From assembly GCF_028369105.1 (NCBI RefSeq), contig NZ_JAQNDO010000001.1, positions 5,300,501-5,364,500 on the forward strand: 64,000 nucleotides of DNA. The letters are read 5' to 3'. This document shows, in pieces, positions 9,616 to 33,744 of the stretch. Under the pieces are notes generated by a model, which saw nothing but the letters and a program-made list of their open reading frames with translations, searched no databases and was not told where the DNA came from. Made by a program: the position numbers and the translations under genes. Numbering within the stretch: position 1 is the stretch's first letter; every line of letters starts with the position of its first letter. Source of the stretch: Polyangium mundeleinium (GTDB lineage Bacteria > Myxococcota_A > Polyangia > Polyangiales > Polyangiaceae).

Positions 9616-10397
9616 GGGGCATCCGGGGGGCCCGGCGGAGGCGCCGCGGGCCTGTCGGTGACGCGGTAGCCGACGCCACGCACGGTCTCGATGAAGGCCG
9701 GGTTTCCGCCGGCCGACTCGACCTTGCGGCGAAGGCCTTTTACGTGCGAGTCGATGGTGCGGTCGGAGATGGCGAAGCCGTCGCCCCACACGCGGTCGAT
9801 GAGCTGCGCGCGGGTGAAGACACGGCCGGGCGCCGCGAGCAAGCAAGCGAGGAGGTCGAACTCGACGCGGGTGAGCTCGACCTCGCGGTCGTGGACGTAG
9901 GCCCTGCGGGTGGCCTCGTCGACGGAGAGCGGCTGGGGCGCGGAGGCGGAAGCGGAAGCGGAAGCGTTGGTGGTGACGGGCGCGGGAGCGGGCGTGGGCG
10001 CGGCGGCGGGAGGCGGCGTGGTGCTGAGGGGGGCGGGCGGGGCGACGCGGCGGAGGACGGCGCGGACGCGGGCGACGATTTCGCGGGTGGAGAAGGGTTT
10101 GGTGACGTAGTCGTCGGCGCCGGTTTCGAGGGCGGCGACGCGGTCGGCTTCGTCGTCGCGGCTCGTGAGGACGATGATGGGGGTGCCGAGGCCGCTCCTG
10201 CGGACCTTGCCGATGAGGTCGAAGCCGCTGCCATCGGGGAGCATGAGGTCGAGCAGGACGAGGGAGGCGCCGTCGAGGGAGCGCTCGGCGCCGGCGAGGG
10301 TGCCGGCGAGGGTGACGCCGAAGCCGTCGCGGCGGAGCGCGTACGCGAGGGACTCGGCGATCGCGGGCTCGTCCTCGACGATCAGGATGTGCGGCAT
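9612..10397 (-). CDS. OmpR/PhoB-type response regulator
   Basis: 261 residues. The receiver domain has the acidic pair at residues 8-10, the phosphoacceptor Asp50 in LVLLDLMLPDG, the Thr in VLTSRDD and Lys100 in YVTKPF. A long Pro/Ala/Thr/Ser-rich linker (about residues 117-150) leads to a winged helix with RVEFDLLACLL and TIDSHVKGLRRK. ATG at 10397 begins the receiver; the open frame further upstream is in the repeat region and is not coding. First gene of a two-gene operon with the kinase. No clear Shine-Dalgarno site. Confidence 0.94.
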   Translation of the reverse strand: MPHILIVEDEPAIAESLAYALRRDGFGVTLAGTLAGAERSLDGASLVLLDLMLPDGSGFDLIGKVRRSGLGTPIIVLTSRDDEADRVAALETGADDYVTKPFSTREIVARVRAVLRRVAPPAPLSTTPPPAAAPTPAPAPVTTNASASASASAPQPLSVDEATRRAYVHDREVELTRVEFDLLACLLAAPGRVFTRAQLIDRVWGDGFAISDRTIDSHVKGLRRKVESAGGNPAFIETVRGVGYRVTDRPAAPPPGPPDAP

Positions 10398-10582
10398 GCG
10401 GGGAGGTATCGCGCCGCTCGGGGGCGGGTTCAACAGGGAAGGGCGGGGTCGGGCTCGCGAGGGCGCGACGCCCGCCACGCTGCCAGCGGTGCTCCTTGCC
10501 CTGAGCATGGGTCTCATCTGGGTAGCACCGCGCCCCGGGGCGCCGCCCCGGACCCCGCGGGGGGCTGTCCGCCCCCTCGACC

Positions 10583-10647
10583 CCGGACCAGCGAGGCGCT
10601 GGACCCAGGTTTGAAAACTGCGCGGTGCGCAGTTTTTCAAACAGGCC
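10583..10647 (+). repeat. Stem-loop module, copy 1
   Basis: CCAGCG-AGG-CGCTGG hairpin (10588-10602) followed by a second hairpin with arms TTTGAAAACTGCGC and GCGCAGTTTTTCAAA (10610-10641), ending in CAGGCC. Same architecture as the copies at 11558 and 11701. Confidence 0.7.
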
Positions 10648-10728
10648 GACGAAGGAGCCGGGGGGCCAGCCAAACCCACAACGCGGCTGTCTTGGTCGGC
10701 AGGGTCGTCGCCGGTCTTGAACGGGTCT

Positions 10729-10766
10729 GTTCGATGAGCTGCGCAGAGCGCAGTTCATCGAGCTTT
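10729..10766 (-). repeat. Stem-loop module, copy 2 (opposite orientation, partial)
   Basis: GTTCGATGAGCTGCGC and GCGCAGTTCATCGAGC arms form the second-hairpin part of the module; the CCAGCG hairpin is missing. Confidence 0.6.
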
Positions 10767-10959
10767 CGGTTACAATCGTCGTGCAGCGCGGGGACGACCG
10801 GATCACGGCGAAATACCGGTCCGCGGGGCCCCGCTGCGAGCGGCCGCGGCGGGTCGCGCCGCAAGGACGTGCCCGGGGAAAATGTATCCGAGGAGGCGCC
10901 CGGTCCGTGCAACGGAGGCGCGGGACCCGCGGACGCGCCTTGCGGAAGGGACAATCCCC

Positions 10960-11290
10960 GCGAAAACGGCGAAACGCTCGTTCCCGAAGATCGGAACGCG
11001 CCCCACCCCGCGGCGGTACGTGTTCCCGGAATCGGGAACGTCCCCGGAAGCGGATCCAGGCGCGTTGCACGATGTGGGAAGAACCTCGAGGGCGGCGTCG
11101 CGCTGCGTTCCGAAAAAGGGGAAGGCTCCCGGAAACGAGGCGGGGGGCGTTCCGAAAAAGGGGAACGAGCTGGGAGACGGCTCCGCGCGTGGTCCAGCAA
11201 CGCGGAATCGACCTCGGCGCAGAGGCGAGGGGCGCTCCGACAAAGGGGAATCGGGCTGGCAGCGGATCCGGGCGCGTTGCGAGGAGGTGG
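10960..11290. repeat. Cluster of short degenerate palindromes
   Basis: Several related units with GTTCC and GGAAC arms: GTTCCCGAAGATCGGAAC, GTTCCCGGAATCGGGAAC, two copies of GCGTTCCGAAAAAGGGGAA, and a variant GCGCTCCGACAAAGGGGAA. GCGGATCC(A/G)GGCGCGTTGC also appears twice (about 11051 and 11261). They look like a decayed tandem family. Confidence 0.5.
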
Positions 11291-11373
11291 AGGCGGGGTC
11301 GAAGCGGCGCGGGCCTCGTGCGGGTCGGGCGGCGCTGGGCGCTCGCGTTCCCCGGCGTCGCGGGCCGTCCGCT

Positions 11374-11520
11374 GCGCAGTGGATCGCCGAGCTCGGCGGC
11401 TACACCGGCAAGTCTTCCGGAGGCCCGCCCGGCTCCGTCACCATCAGCCGCGGACGCGAACGACTGGCACCCGCAGCAGAGATGCTCCGGGTGCTCTGGG
11501 AGAACGGGCTTGTTCGATGA
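11374..11520 (+). pseudogene. 3' remnant of an IS4-family transposase
   Basis: The last 47 codons (QWIAELGGYTGKSSGGPPGS onward to ENGLVR and TGA at 11518-11520) are almost identical in protein to the C-terminus of the intact transposase at 32254-33681. Everything upstream of about 11374 is unrelated. No catalytic residue is left. Confidence 0.85.
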
Positions 11521-11557
11521 GACCCGTGCTCAGCACCAGGGGTTGTCCACCCCTGGA

Positions 11558-11624
11558 CCCGGACCAGCGAGGCGCTGGACCCAAGCTCGATGAACTGCGC
11601 GGTGCGCAGTTCATCGAACAGGCC
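11558..11624 (+). repeat. Stem-loop module, copy 3
   Basis: GGACCAGCGAGGCGCTGGACC followed by the hairpin arms TCGATGAACTGCGC and GCGCAGTTCATCGA and ending ACAGGCC. It is preceded by the CCAGGGGT-TGTCC-ACCCCTGG hairpin at 11536-11556, mirrored in copy 1 by a GGGGGC-TGTCC-GCCCCC hairpin. Confidence 0.7.
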
Positions 11625-11700
11625 CGGTGAAGACCAGCAACGACGTTGCCGACCGAGACAGCCGCGCTGCTGGTTCTGCTGGCCCCACGGCTTCTTCATC

Positions 11701-11767
11701 GGCCTGTTTGAAAAACTGCGCACCGCGCAGTTTTCAACCCTGGGTCCAGCGCCTCGCTGGTCCGGGG
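11701..11767 (-). repeat. Stem-loop module, copy 4 (opposite orientation)
   Basis: Near-exact reverse complement of copy 1: CAGGCC side first, arms TTTGAAAAACTGCGC and GCGCAGTTTTCAA, then GGGTCCAGCGCCTCGCTGG. With copy 3 it forms a head-to-head pair about 75 bp apart. Confidence 0.7.
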
Positions 11768-11818
11768 TCGAGGGGGCGGACAGCCCCCCGCGGGGACCGG
11801 GGCGGAGTCCCGGGGCGG

Positions 11819-13984
11819 CTACCGCAACACCTCCGCTCGGATCGGCCGATACGACATCGCGACGCGCCCCACGCCGAGCTGCCCGCCTTCGTCGCGCCCC
11901 CAGCACCACAAATGCTCGTCGTCCGTGAGCGCACACGCGTGCTCGTATCCGACGCCGATCCGCGTCGCCGGTCGCGGCAGCGGCACCGTCTTCACGGCCC
12001 CCGGGTGGTTCATCTCCCAGCAATGGACCTTTCCCGCTTGGATCGCGCAAAACATGTCGTCCGCGCCTGCAATCGCATCTGCTTGCGGGAGACCGTCGAT
12101 CGCGACGGCCGAGGTCGGCCTTATCGTCGGGGTGCCCCGCTCGACGTCCGGCTCGAAGCAGCGCAGCGCGCCGCCGGCCAGGGCGCAGAACGTCGAGGCG
12201 CCGCCGGTCAGGGCCGTCACGCCGGTGAGGCCCGCGATTTTCGTGACCTTGGGGTTCGGCGCTTCCTCGGCGAAATCCTGGTCCGCGTCGAAGCGATGAT
12301 CGTGGAAGCAGGCGACGTGGCGATCGGCGCCCTGGATCACGCACATCGTCTCGGCCGTGGCCTCGATCGAGACCGCGCCCGACACGTGCGGCACCTTTTG
12401 CCAGGTATCGCCGTCATACCCGCCGGCCTCGCCGAGGTAAAACAGACAATGCGCAGCGCCGCCGACGAGGGCGCACACGTTGTTGATACGATCGGTCGCG
12501 AAATCGGTCGCCTTGCCGGGCAAGGCCGGCAGCCGGTCGCTGTCCCAGCGCGACGCCAGGGTGCAATGCTGACGGTTGTCCCGGTCCTTGCAACGGTCGA
12601 CCTTGTTGAAGAACCCGCAACGCACGTCGCCGCCGGGCAGGAGCCCGCACACGGTGACTTGACCCAGGTCCATGGCCACGACCCGGTCGGGAAAGCTCGC
12701 TTTCTGCGGCCATGGCCCCGGGTCGCTGTCGCCGCCCCAGCAGGAGATGTCGCCGCCGGCGAGGATACACGTCTCGCTCGACCCGCCCTGGATGTCCGTC
12801 GCGCCCCGAAAGACGCCGACGTCCACGGGGGTCGCCCGGTGGAGGGGTTTGCCGTCGCCGAGCTGGCCCTCTCGATGGAGGCCCCAGCAAAACACGTCGC
12901 CGTCCGATTCGAGCGCGCAGGTATGGTTGTCCGAGAGCGCGAGATCGATGGCGTCGCTCACGCCCACGACGGGCACGGCGCCGCCCACGAGCGGCGCGTC
13001 CGGATCGATGCCGGTTTCCCCATAATAGGCATGTCCCCAGCACGCCACCCGCCCGCTCGTGTCAATCGCGCAGACGCGCTCGCCCCCCGCCTGCACCCGA
13101 CGCGCGCCGCGCGCGAACGCAGGCATGTCGAGCTCGGGGAGGATGCTCCCCAGGAGATCGGTGCCCAGGCAGAGCGGCGCGCTGTCCGTCTCGAAGCAGG
13201 CGCGTCCCCTCGCGGCCGACACGCGCCGAAACGGCGCCGCGCCCTTTTTCGCGGGAACGGGTACCCACGTCGCCGCCGCGTCCTTCTTCCACGGGAGGTT
13301 TCCCTTGCATTGCGCCGCGCCTCCCTTGCGCGTGACGCATACGTAATCTTCCCCCGGAGCGATCGACGTCACGTCGTTGAGCCCGAGCCGAATCGCCGCG
13401 GTTGGGGAGGTGTTCCCGCTCTCGCCGAGCCACTCTGCGTTGCCCCAGCAGGCTGCGTCCCCGTCGCGCAGAATGGCGCAGCCCACCGTTTCCTGGACGA
13501 CGATCCCCGTCGCGTCCGTGACCCCGGTGATACGCAGCTCGCGTTTCGTGGTCGGATCGGCGTACACCCAGCCTCCCCAGCAGAACACGGCGCCGGATTC
13601 GGTGAGCGCGCACGTGAAGCCGGAGCCGGCCGCGATATCGACCATACGCTCCCCGAGCACGACGTCGGCGACGCGCGTATTCTCGGAGGATCCCGAGGGG
13701 AGATGCGGCTGGTGGAGAAGCCCGACGCAACGGGCCACGCCCTCGGAGCCAAGCACGCAGGTATGGCTGCTTCCCGCGACCACGCGGCGGACCTGACCGA
13801 GCTTCACGGGCGCGAAGGAGACGGCAGGGGAGGCGTTGGCCGCGGGGGCGGCGGTCGCGACGGTCGGCCTGGGCTTCGATGCGGCGGGCGCGGTCGGCAT
13901 CGGGGTTTTTCCGGATGCAGCGGGATGGCTGCACGCGGCGAGCGCGAGGAGGAGCAGGGCCAGGCGGGGGCGGGCGGAGCGCAC
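11819..13984 (-). CDS. RCC1-repeat beta-propeller lipoprotein
   Basis: A 721-residue predicted lipoprotein (GTG start at 13984; lipobox LALAAC near residue 18) with a Pro/Ala/Thr linker and then many RCC1/BLIP-II-like blades, each with the pattern HTC-x-G-x-V-x-CWG, for instance FTCALTESGAVFCWGG and HTCALESDGDVFCWG. Paired cysteines in almost every blade suggest disulfides in the periplasm or on the surface. Such proteins are abundant in myxobacteria and generally bind other proteins; no enzyme motif is visible. The stop lies right at the edge of the repeat block, which may carry its termination signal. Confidence 0.87.
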   Translation of the reverse strand: MRSARPRLALLLLALAACSHPAASGKTPMPTAPAASKPRPTVATAAPAANASPAVSFAPVKLGQVRRVVAGSSHTCVLGSEGVARCVGLLHQPHLPSGSSENTRVADVVLGERMVDIAAGSGFTCALTESGAVFCWGGWVYADPTTKRELRITGVTDATGIVVQETVGCAILRDGDAACWGNAEWLGESGNTSPTAAIRLGLNDVTSIAPGEDYVCVTRKGGAAQCKGNLPWKKDAAATWVPVPAKKGAAPFRRVSAARGRACFETDSAPLCLGTDLLGSILPELDMPAFARGARRVQAGGERVCAIDTSGRVACWGHAYYGETGIDPDAPLVGGAVPVVGVSDAIDLALSDNHTCALESDGDVFCWGLHREGQLGDGKPLHRATPVDVGVFRGATDIQGGSSETCILAGGDISCWGGDSDPGPWPQKASFPDRVVAMDLGQVTVCGLLPGGDVRCGFFNKVDRCKDRDNRQHCTLASRWDSDRLPALPGKATDFATDRINNVCALVGGAAHCLFYLGEAGGYDGDTWQKVPHVSGAVSIEATAETMCVIQGADRHVACFHDHRFDADQDFAEEAPNPKVTKIAGLTGVTALTGGASTFCALAGGALRCFEPDVERGTPTIRPTSAVAIDGLPQADAIAGADDMFCAIQAGKVHCWEMNHPGAVKTVPLPRPATRIGVGYEHACALTDDEHLWCWGRDEGGQLGVGRVAMSYRPIRAEVLR

Positions 13985-32240: not shown

Positions 32241-32259
32241 CTGAGCACTGGTCTCATCT
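32241..32259 (+). repeat. IS terminal inverted repeat, left
   Basis: CTGAGCACTGGTCTCATCT; overlaps the last codons of the transposase gene, whose stop is at 32254-32256. Confidence 0.85.
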
Positions 32260-33681
32260 CACGAGCCCATTCTCCCTGAGGACCCGCAGCATCTCTGCTG
32301 CGGGGGCCAGGCGCTCCAGGCCGCGGCTGATGGTGACGGAGCCGGGGGGACCTCCGGAAGACTTGCCTGTGTAGCCGCCGAGCTCGGCGATCCACTGCAC
32401 GGCGAGCGCGATGGGCGGGATCCCATCGGGGATCTGCTCGTTCTTCTTCTTCCGTTTCCGCTTGAGCAGCACCAAGGCCTCGACCTCGTATGTCGCGAGC
32501 TCTTCGGTCGCTGGCAGGTCCGGTTGGGTGCGCGCGAGGTGCTTGAGACGTTCGGTGCGTGTGGCGATGGCTGCGAGCATGCTGCCCCAGATTTTGACTT
32601 GTTGGGTCCCTTGAAGTTGCGTGGACTCGACGTTGCACTGGCCCGTCTTCCACGTCCGGAAAAAGTCCTCGATGCGCCAGCGCTGGCTGTAACCATGGGC
32701 GACCAGCAACGCATCCTCGAGCGTTTGCACGGGGTGGTTGGTGTACAGCAGCCAATCGATGCGAGGCTCGCCCGCGGGCACGCTGCTGGTCTCGAGGACG
32801 CGCACGGCATACAGCGGCAACGCGCGCCAACGCTTGTTCCACCCGTCTCGAAGCGACAGCGTGACAGCCGCGACATGCGCGCTCATCCGCGCCATTCGCT
32901 CCGTGCGACCCGGTGCGGCCGAGATCCAAAGGGAAAAGGAGCCCTTTCGGGCGCTCGGGCGCGCCAACTCGTCGAACACGTATCGGCTCGCACCCGTCTC
33001 CGACATGAGCCGGCGGTTTGCCTTGCCCCGCACGGTGAACCAGTGCCCGCTCGTCGAGAGGTGAAGCAAAAGCTGCCAGGCATCAGCCTCCCGGTCGAGC
33101 TGGTACCAGGCACAACAACCCGACGCCGCCATGGCGAGCCGCTCGGACGTCTCGGTGATCACGTTGGCCCAGTGGCCGAGCTCCTTTTCGTGCAGCTTGC
33201 GCTTGGCGCTGTCTTCTTTCTGCTTCTGCTCTCGCGCCCACCACTGCATCGACGTCAAGCCGCAGGGCACCCCCTGCGCGTCGACGGCGAGACCGCAAAC
33301 GACCTTCAGCCCGCGGGTGCCTCGACCATGCGTGCCGACCGCGCCGAAGTCCTTGCTGCGGTTGTGATCCGTGAGCGTCAGGCTGGTGGCATCGATGGCG
33401 ACGAAGACGAACATCTCCTTGGCGCAACGGCGCGCGGTGGCAAGACCGGTGGCCTCGAGGATGGCCCCTACGTCGATGTGTCGGCTCTCCAGGAAGTCGT
33501 ACGCTCCCTGCCTGTGGGCATCGACTTGGAAGACTTCACTCACCTTTCCCGACGGATACAGCACCGCCTGCGCGGCCATGCGCGTCAGCCGCCGGGTCCG
33601 GCGCGGGTCTCCAAGGTCCGCATGCCCAAACTCCTCCGCCGCCCACGCTTCCGCCGACGAGGCTGTCTCTGCATCCAACAT
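32254..33681 (-). CDS. IS4-family transposase
   Basis: 475 residues from the ATG at 33681 (GAGGGGGAG upstream). The N-terminus (EFGHADLGDPRRTRRLTRMA) matches the end-binding region of Tn5-type transposases. The DDE triad is visible: Asp in FVAIDATSLTLTD, Asp in CAWYQLDREADAW, and Glu in the Y-R-E-K-like stretch SQRWRIEDFFRTWKTG. The C-terminal dimerisation part ends VSITSRG-like (SVTISRGLERLAPA). All catalytic residues are intact, so it should be active. Its 5' leader folds into a hairpin that covers the ribosome site. Confidence 0.94.
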   Translation of the reverse strand: MLDAETASSAEAWAAEEFGHADLGDPRRTRRLTRMAAQAVLYPSGKVSEVFQVDAHRQGAYDFLESRHIDVGAILEATGLATARRCAKEMFVFVAIDATSLTLTDHNRSKDFGAVGTHGRGTRGLKVVCGLAVDAQGVPCGLTSMQWWAREQKQKEDSAKRKLHEKELGHWANVITETSERLAMAASGCCAWYQLDREADAWQLLLHLSTSGHWFTVRGKANRRLMSETGASRYVFDELARPSARKGSFSLWISAAPGRTERMARMSAHVAAVTLSLRDGWNKRWRALPLYAVRVLETSSVPAGEPRIDWLLYTNHPVQTLEDALLVAHGYSQRWRIEDFFRTWKTGQCNVESTQLQGTQQVKIWGSMLAAIATRTERLKHLARTQPDLPATEELATYEVEALVLLKRKRKKKNEQIPDGIPPIALAVQWIAELGGYTGKSSGGPPGSVTISRGLERLAPAAEMLRVLRENGLVR

Positions 33682-33683
33682 CT

Positions 33684-33709
33684 CCCCCTCTAAATGTCGT
33701 CAGAGGGGG
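33684..33709 (-). promoter_or_regulatory. Leader hairpin masking the transposase ribosome site
   Basis: CCCCCTCT (33684-33691) and AGAGGGGG (33702-33709) form an 8-bp stem on the transposase mRNA, and the Shine-Dalgarno stretch lies inside it. IS10 and IS50 are known to block transposase translation from outside transcripts with such a hairpin. Confidence 0.6.
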
Positions 33710-33725
33710 CGAATGTACCGATGGA

Positions 33726-33744
33726 AGATGGAACCAATGCTCAG
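33726..33744 (-). repeat. IS terminal inverted repeat, right
   Basis: Read inward CTGAGCATTGGTTCCATCT; lies 45 bp upstream of the transposase start. Confidence 0.85.

Follow-up and report, generated by a model that had tools for sequence, protein, structure and literature searches.

A 64,000-nucleotide stretch of Polyangium mundeleinium DNA, positions 5,300,501 to 5,364,500 of the main contig (13.24 Mb; the genome has two contigs; hereafter, this stretch is the window), contains a cluster of inverted hairpins at 10540-11819, and our analysis confirmed these hairpins as members of a real, genome-wide palindrome family of Polyangium that extends beyond this locus. The hairpin modules probably constitute the interior of short nonautonomous transposons resembling miniature inverted-repeat transposable elements (MITEs), which are moved in trans by a Tn5-type transposase of the IS4 family, with the corresponding insertion sequence (IS) targeting the hairpins. 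Under this model, the family would comprise complete copies, seen at 354 to 365 bp, and longer forms carrying cargo. The transposase would recognize ends of the type CTGAGCA...GGTYYCATC and generate 9-bp target duplications; both of these features are directly visible, while the mobilization is what we infer from them. The present IS of the same type enters module hairpins preferentially, and because of this preference the elements would nest. What keeps the stems paired may be correction from a template or gene conversion, acting on hairpin arms and on copies, or selection for a DNA palindrome, or both. Many copies lie in small gaps beside gene 3′ ends, where insertion is probably little harmful.

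The hairpins that the first-pass annotation had claimed are present and fold far beyond chance, and the outcome that it had named as refuting its reading, a module unique to this locus with no compensatory changes elsewhere, did not materialize, given that the exact hairpin ACTGCGC-NNN-GCGCAGT occurs 220 times in the same genome (G000; reversed control, 0) and that stems have changed on both sides. The same motif is found in the other five genomes of the genus (G001 to G005) in 56, 599, 347, 241, and 499 copies, respectively, while a search of 177 further genomes in the order gave none in 171 and one or two copies in 6. A covariance-model search (97 genomes searched) placed the module in all six genomes of the genus and in none of the remainder, and among 59 genomes BLAST matched 6 strongly and 4 others at only 41.9 to 45.5 bits; copies were scored per genome from up to 38 candidates of the covariance model and up to 12 of BLAST. 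Within its own genome, the window segment gave 105 BLAST matches. In a pattern scan of named genomes, all 80 loci listed, of at least 120 stretches, came from P. fumosum or Polyangium sp. 15x6, 6x1, or y55x31, and G003, G005, G002, and G004 presumably correspond to these.

Alignment of 30 units from P. mundeleinium revealed a unit of ∼300 to 310 bp with sharp edges, in which a variable center divides the eight main hairpins four and four, with the two sides being inverted copies, i.e., two modules arranged head to head. The ACTGCGC hairpins are ∼121 bp apart in subfamily A and 145 to 152 bp apart in subfamily B, and the center also differs. Two units folded with z values of −13.8 and −15.2 under RNA parameters, the latter being the window unit at 11534-11819 (−13.0 under DNA parameters), for which 0 of 200 shuffles folded as well.

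The best-preserved copies are bounded, a few bases beyond the last hairpin, by CTGAGCATGGGTCTCATC and its inverse, so that 18-bp terminal inverted repeats (TIRs) stand at both ends, as in MITEs. Eight TIR-to-TIR elements with a module interior were recovered (L043, L092, L095, L150, L351, L354, L355, and a composite in the window). Perfect 9/9 duplications flank L043 (1,011 bp, with cargo) and L092 (365 bp) of subfamily A and L355 (354 bp) of subfamily B, and L351 (361 bp, A) has 8/9. This duplication length, 9 bp, matches that of the partner IS, and the ends are common with those of the resident autonomous IS (CTGAGCATGGGTCTCATC compared to CTGAGCACTGGTCTCATC and CTGAGCATTGGTTCCATC). A TIR identical at ≥13 of 18 positions was recognizable at 31 of 205 subfamily A ends (none in shuffled flanks or in 205 windows placed 200 bp farther out) and at 5 of 28 subfamily B ends; thus, most copies taken alone would not pass for MITEs by their TIRs. 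An inward CTGAG tip was present at 48 of the 205 ends; distant windows averaged 2.75 such tips, and the wrong orientation gave 4. Each genome of the genus contains 8 to 61 exact matches to the IS-type end pattern, which outside the genus is found in 4 of 177 genomes. For instance, a genome of another genus (G027) contains elements of 358 bp (L337:473-830) and 279 bp (L340:461-739) that share these ends and have 9/9 duplications, and one of 345 bp (L338:496-840) with the same terminal repeats and no duplication. The 279- and 358-bp elements enclose a different hairpin-rich interior (DNA z of −5.8 and −8.9, paired TIRs included). Two of the duplications in G027 end in ACGGTCG. At L348:438, an IS-type end stands beside the module target (GGACCAGGCACGGCC) and is followed by DNA unlike the IS, representing either a one-ended, a rearranged, or a different element.

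The candidate source of transposase is an intact IS within the window (Table 1). Its product matched NF033590 (IS4_3) with 254.6 bits (cutoff, 160) and PF14706, PF01609, and PF02281 above their cutoffs, with the domain hits including Tnp_DNA_bind and Dimer_Tnp_Tn5, which points to the Tn5/IS50 type of the IS4 family. The ends of the IS are CTGAGCATTGGTTCCATC and CTGAGCACTGGTCTCATC, and its duplications are 9/9 in L253, L254, and L274 (the last being a G002 copy) and 8/9 in the window copy (L047). Right ends of the IS lie inside modules in 17 of 19 cases and left ends in 5 of 7 (ends were counted as distinct by their outer 30 bases, with identical ones merged), while random 60-mers hit a module in 10 of 2,000 cases. 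Without the window's own end, which had been collected because of its module, the count for right ends is 16 of 18. Its target duplication reads GGCACGGCC or GGCCGTGCC and straddles the loop of the CCAGGC-CGT-GCCTGG hairpin. The IS thus inserts preferentially into module hairpins, as shown in G000, G002, and G003. Transposase matches in G002 were 84% identical over the full length and 94 to 95% in fragments; in G003 they were fragments of 90 to 100% identity, mostly at contig ends. Many G003 contigs (L293 to L308) terminate inside the IS, and breaks in the assembly thus reveal where IS copies lie in that genome. In L046 (2386-3889), the IS stands inside a module whose flanks are not adjacent, with ∼26 bp missing relative to other units, a pattern like that left by an adjacent deletion.

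Several observations weigh against a MITE-like family moved by this transposase. In half of the eight TIR-to-TIR elements (L095, L150, L354, and the window composite), the duplication matches at no more than 6 of 9 positions; the 9-mers flanking the composite agree at only 4 of 9 positions, and therefore later changes or a junction deletion must be assumed; and the IS copy in L046 likewise shows only 4/9. Although the hairpins persist, 174 of the 205 unit ends lack a recognizable TIR, while ∼194 would be predicted to retain one from the divergence of unpaired core columns and ∼58 even if they had diverged as fast as the most variable third of these columns, compared to the 31 seen. Either the ends have been trimmed or selected against, or else the cores have been kept or homogenized. 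In G004, which holds 241 hairpins, no transposase match was found; G001 (best match, 67%) and G005 contain only remnants of 63 to 73% identity; and 14 genomes of other genera, all without modules, contain more distant relatives of the transposase. MITE ends, unlike IS ends, lie within modules in only 6 of 58 cases, and the present IS therefore may not have moved the older copies. Finally, several units at matching places in different genomes are inversely oriented or nearer to copies of their own genome. Own-genome copies were closer than matching-place copies in 10/10 and 12/12 comparisons for G002/G005, and in 0/26 and 0/12 for G000/G003b. Concerted evolution is not claimed here, considering the alternative of independent insertion into the same gap.

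The window locus itself is a nest, in which a composite comprising a MITE left end, cargo, and an IS right end lies against an older unit. Two inverted arms of 235 nt (10531-10765 and 11583-11817) are 90% complementary, with additional repeats of 32 and 33 nt. Four ACTGCGC-type hairpins are located at 10617, 10738 (first base altered), 11594, and 11715, with flanks of TTTGAAAA or TCGATGA that pair on both sides (the 3′ arm of the last one being one T short). The first-pass annotation had read these as four modules in two head-to-head pairs. The inverted blocks stand, but the full modules number three: the covariance model scored 10533-10646, 11502-11623, and 11702-11815 at 91 to 99 bits and 10725-10851 at only 41, the left block being truncated so that its second module consists of the 10730-10762 hairpin alone. 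The composite at 10501-11533 (1,033 bp, TIR bounded) contains a truncated MITE, cargo, and the terminal ∼150 bp of a transposase gene together with the right end of the IS, and it adjoins the second hairpin of the unit at 11534-11819. In G003, a single unit stands between the same neighboring sequences. The composite's cargo carries repeated GTTCC...GGAAC palindromes, and its copy in L016 has no detected module. A second type of cargo, a ∼21-bp tandem repeat (GGAGGTACGAGGCCGTGCCTT), occurs in longer elements in L042 to L046 (e.g., L043:1756-2350), and in L043 to L046 a part of the unit (profile positions 113 to 161) flanks this cargo on both sides.

Table 1. Features of the hairpin locus and of the intact insertion sequence (window coordinates)
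Position	Strand	Feature	Basis or remark
10501-10518	+	Left TIR (CTGAGCATGGGTCTCATC) of the 1,033-bp TIR-to-TIR composite	16/18 identical to right end of intact IS 32241-33744
10534-10765	-	Truncated subfamily A unit (profile positions 306 to 74)	Covariance model 10533-10646, 98.8 bits
10559-10576		Hairpin of GGGGGGC-TGTCC-GCCCCC type	Sequence
10588-10602		Hairpin CCAGCG-AGG-CGCTGG (IS target type)	Sequence
10610-10641		Hairpin TTTGAAAACTGCGC-GGT-GCGCAGTTTTTCAAA	Sequence
10730-10762		Hairpin TCGATGAGCTGCGC-AGA-GCGCAGTTCATCGA, second-module remnant of left block	41 bits with covariance model
10815-11320		Composite cargo; whole or part recurs at L009, L010, L016	Genome matches
11368-11520	+	Transposase C-terminal remnant (IS4 family, Tn5 type)	92% identity to residues 426-475 of intact transposase; DNA 87-88%
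11516-11533	-	Right TIR (CTGAGCACGGGTCTCATC on - strand)	Sequence
11534-11819	+	Subfamily A unit of two head-to-head modules, lacking the outermost left hairpin	Orthologous place occupied in G003
11536-11556		Hairpin CCAGGGG-TTGTCCA-CCCCTGG; IS-derived right end abuts	Sequence
11564-11578		Hairpin CCAGCG-AGG-CGCTGG	Sequence
11587-11617		Hairpin TCGATGAACTGCGC-GGT-GCGCAGTTCATCGA	Sequence
11707-11737		Hairpin TTTGAAAAACTGCGC-ACC-GCGCAGTTTTCAA, 3′ arm one T short	Sequence
11746-11760		Hairpin CCAGCG-CCT-CGCTGG (IS target type)	Sequence
11772-11788		Hairpin GGGGGC-GGACA-GCCCCC	Sequence
11797-11813		Outermost hairpin CCGGGGC-GGA-GTCCCGG (one G.T)	Sequence
32241-33744	-	Intact 1,504-bp IS, Tn5-type IS4 family; 475-aa transposase at 32254-33681; candidate transposase source	Four nearly identical copies in genome

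Stem pairing was evaluated on an alignment of 87 of 88 units from the six genomes, using five of the eight helices (47 pairs), with helices misaligned by MAFFT left out. Among 4,080 stem cells, 99.5% were paired (4,057 Watson-Crick, 3 G.T, 13 A.C, and 7 other mismatches), and 18 of the 47 pairs (147 cells) had changed on both sides, compared to 6.2 pairs and 38.4 cells in shuffles and ≤4 and ≤14 in slid structures, although kinship among copies inflates these counts and cells are not events. Stem columns are more conserved than unpaired ones (0.920 versus 0.775). Selection acting on RNA is expected to favor wobble pairs over A.C. Wobble pairs are nearly absent here, and correction at the DNA level or selection for a DNA palindrome is therefore indicated, which suggests that stem pairing is kept at the DNA level. 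Of the selection for structure proposed in the first-pass annotation, the part concerning changes on both sides that keep pairing thus holds, while selection on RNA structure finds no support. Pairing might even be maintained without any selection, if template switching or cruciform-directed correction restored it whenever the DNA is replicated, a prospect that we place somewhat short of an even chance. It accords with the scarcity of wobble intermediates and with multibase arm switches in which both arms were altered together, and template switching has been described as a DNA-level mechanism of arm correction (PMC8794818, in part). Shared ancestry, however, inflates the both-side counts on which it draws, further pair types show no excess (23 versus 23.1 in shuffles), 10 of the 13 A.C cells fall in one column and may go back to a single inherited event, and mutation is known here from sequence comparison rather than from direct observation.

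Host selection on the cores is a further alternative, in which exapted elements would have lost their TIRs and become immobilized while working for the host, e.g., by terminating transcription in both directions or by insulating convergent genes from each other; we regard it as rather doubtful. In keeping with it, cores persist while TIRs disappear faster than even unpaired core columns diverge, and the position relative to gene ends, to which the first-pass annotation had drawn attention, proved to be nonrandom: 27 of 56 scored units lie in convergent gaps (20 codirectional and 9 divergent), compared to 23 of 96 background gaps (Fisher P = 0.004), and the median distance of units to a gene 3′ end is 17 bp. 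The gap counts cover 56 of 87 units (26 being too far from a called gene and 5 lacking one) and depend on simple gene calling with unreliable start sites. Two of three G000/G003 pairs also differ in loops, spacers, and center plus one compensated stem change (CCAGCC/GGCTGG to CCAGCG/CGCTGG). Against exaptation, the third pair, that of the window unit, additionally has several single stem changes on either side, and whole cores are no more conserved than the alignable flanking 800 bp (82 to 95% versus 88 to 96% identity, G000/G003). Moreover, the elements turn over between species, with an empty site in another species at 8 of 164 junctions among the collected loci (7 of the 8 being readable at the junction); some of the 164 come from public records, in which a unit may appear more than once, and two of ten pairs compared lack a readable junction. 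Two of the units facing an empty site, L153 and L228, appear, by our reading, to sit between trinucleotides that could serve as stop codons of two convergent genes. U-tracts are not conserved in the arms (TCGATGA and TGGAAGA variants), and a terminator scan of the locus found 2 compared to 0.9 expected; transcription termination as the sole function was rejected on these two grounds.

On the chromosome, 60 of 66 hairpin loci lie in the half opposite dnaA (2.6 to 10.2 Mb of the G000 main contig), with loci being taken from 92 of the 220 hairpins (GGA/TCC loops only). Their circular mean is 6.3 Mb and the dnaA antipode is at 5.0 Mb. GC skew from 15 samples was consistent with an origin near dnaA and too noisy for placing the terminus. 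Mobile elements in general may show the same bias away from dnaA. A more speculative extension of the MITE-like model, and in our view an improbable one, is that the element makes its own safe harbor: it would carry DNA palindromes that renew themselves by arm-to-arm correction or selection, the transposase would prefer them, insertions would pile up in gene-free gaps opposite dnaA, and emptied cores would persist as domesticated hairpin islands after loss of the ends.

An origin as a family of the REP/BIME/REPIN type (REP, repetitive extragenic palindrome), in which a RAYT, i.e., a Y1 tyrosine transposase, copies palindromes via single-stranded hairpins, is very unlikely. The likeness noted in the first-pass annotation extends to the existence of tens to hundreds of palindromes per genome in inverted pairs and, beyond that, to their enrichment between convergent genes and to the 174 ends without a recognizable TIR; membership in such a family does not follow. 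The search for a Y1 (RAYT-like) transposase gene, which the annotation had proposed, yielded no Y1_Tnp match in G000 or in two of the other five genomes (G002 and G004), while putative matches were found in G003 (one), G001 (two), and G005 (one). Hairpin number is discordant with these counts, since G002 has the most hairpins and no Y1, and G001 has two Y1 matches and the fewest hairpins. For G000, a RAYT origin is thereby largely refuted. None of 87 units has a GTAG head in its outer 60 bases (GTAG alone being counted; 18 of 87 contain it anywhere on either strand), and the conserved unit of ∼300 bp is far from the ∼20 to 40 nt of REPs. The TIRs and 9-bp duplications fit a DDE transposase, and because the TIRs are shared, 9-bp duplications occur, and the IS is resident, we regard the elements as MITE-like rather than as RAYT-driven REPs. 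Least probable of all is a family of structured noncoding RNA genes, which the RNA folding scores and stem covariation would fit but which is opposed by the avoidance of wobble pairs, by the different centers of subfamilies A and B and the other interior of the G027 elements, by an Rfam 15 search of 10000-12400 with no match above the gathering score (best E value, 0.1; 24.1 bits versus a cutoff of 100), and by a sigma-70 scan with no promoter-like site (other promoter types being outside that scan).

Taken as MITE-like transposons, the Polyangium elements resemble bacterial MITEs in being short, abundant, and polymorphic between species and in having TIRs and duplications common with a resident IS; they differ in that the interior consists of about eight hairpins with conserved pairing and is itself an IS insertion site, and in that most copies lack recognizable TIRs. 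All copies of ISRm22, of the IS4 family, lie in GC-rich palindromes (REPs), at the palindrome axis, with 6-bp duplications (PMC1525189, in part). The Polyangium IS likewise inserts at a palindrome axis, here in the CCAGGC-CGT-GCCTGG hairpin, but makes 9-bp duplications and targets sites within elements that bear IS-type ends. For the IS4 family, with its Tn5/IS50-type members, target duplications of ∼10 bp are given (PMC2266710, in part), near the 9 bp seen here, and the transposase domains agree, whereas the strong preference for palindromic modules sets the Polyangium IS apart. As to REP/BIME/RAYT systems (PMC2817692, in part), many inverted-pair palindromes, compensated changes, and species specificity are shared; the lack of Y1 in G000, the absence of a GTAG head, the ∼300-bp unit, and the TIRs with duplications are not. 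In a literature search by title or abstract, no description of these Polyangium elements was found, and a MITE with an interior array of paired hairpins doubling as the preferred target of the matching IS appears, on that basis, to be undescribed. MITEs, REP-like palindromes, and palindrome-targeting IS elements, which are usually treated apart, are linked here, and the six related genomes, with their shared and empty sites, provide a natural case for the origin and upkeep of long perfect hairpins. If it is true that DNA repair keeps the pairing, covariation alone would be no proof of a functional RNA, which would be relevant to structure-based RNA discovery.

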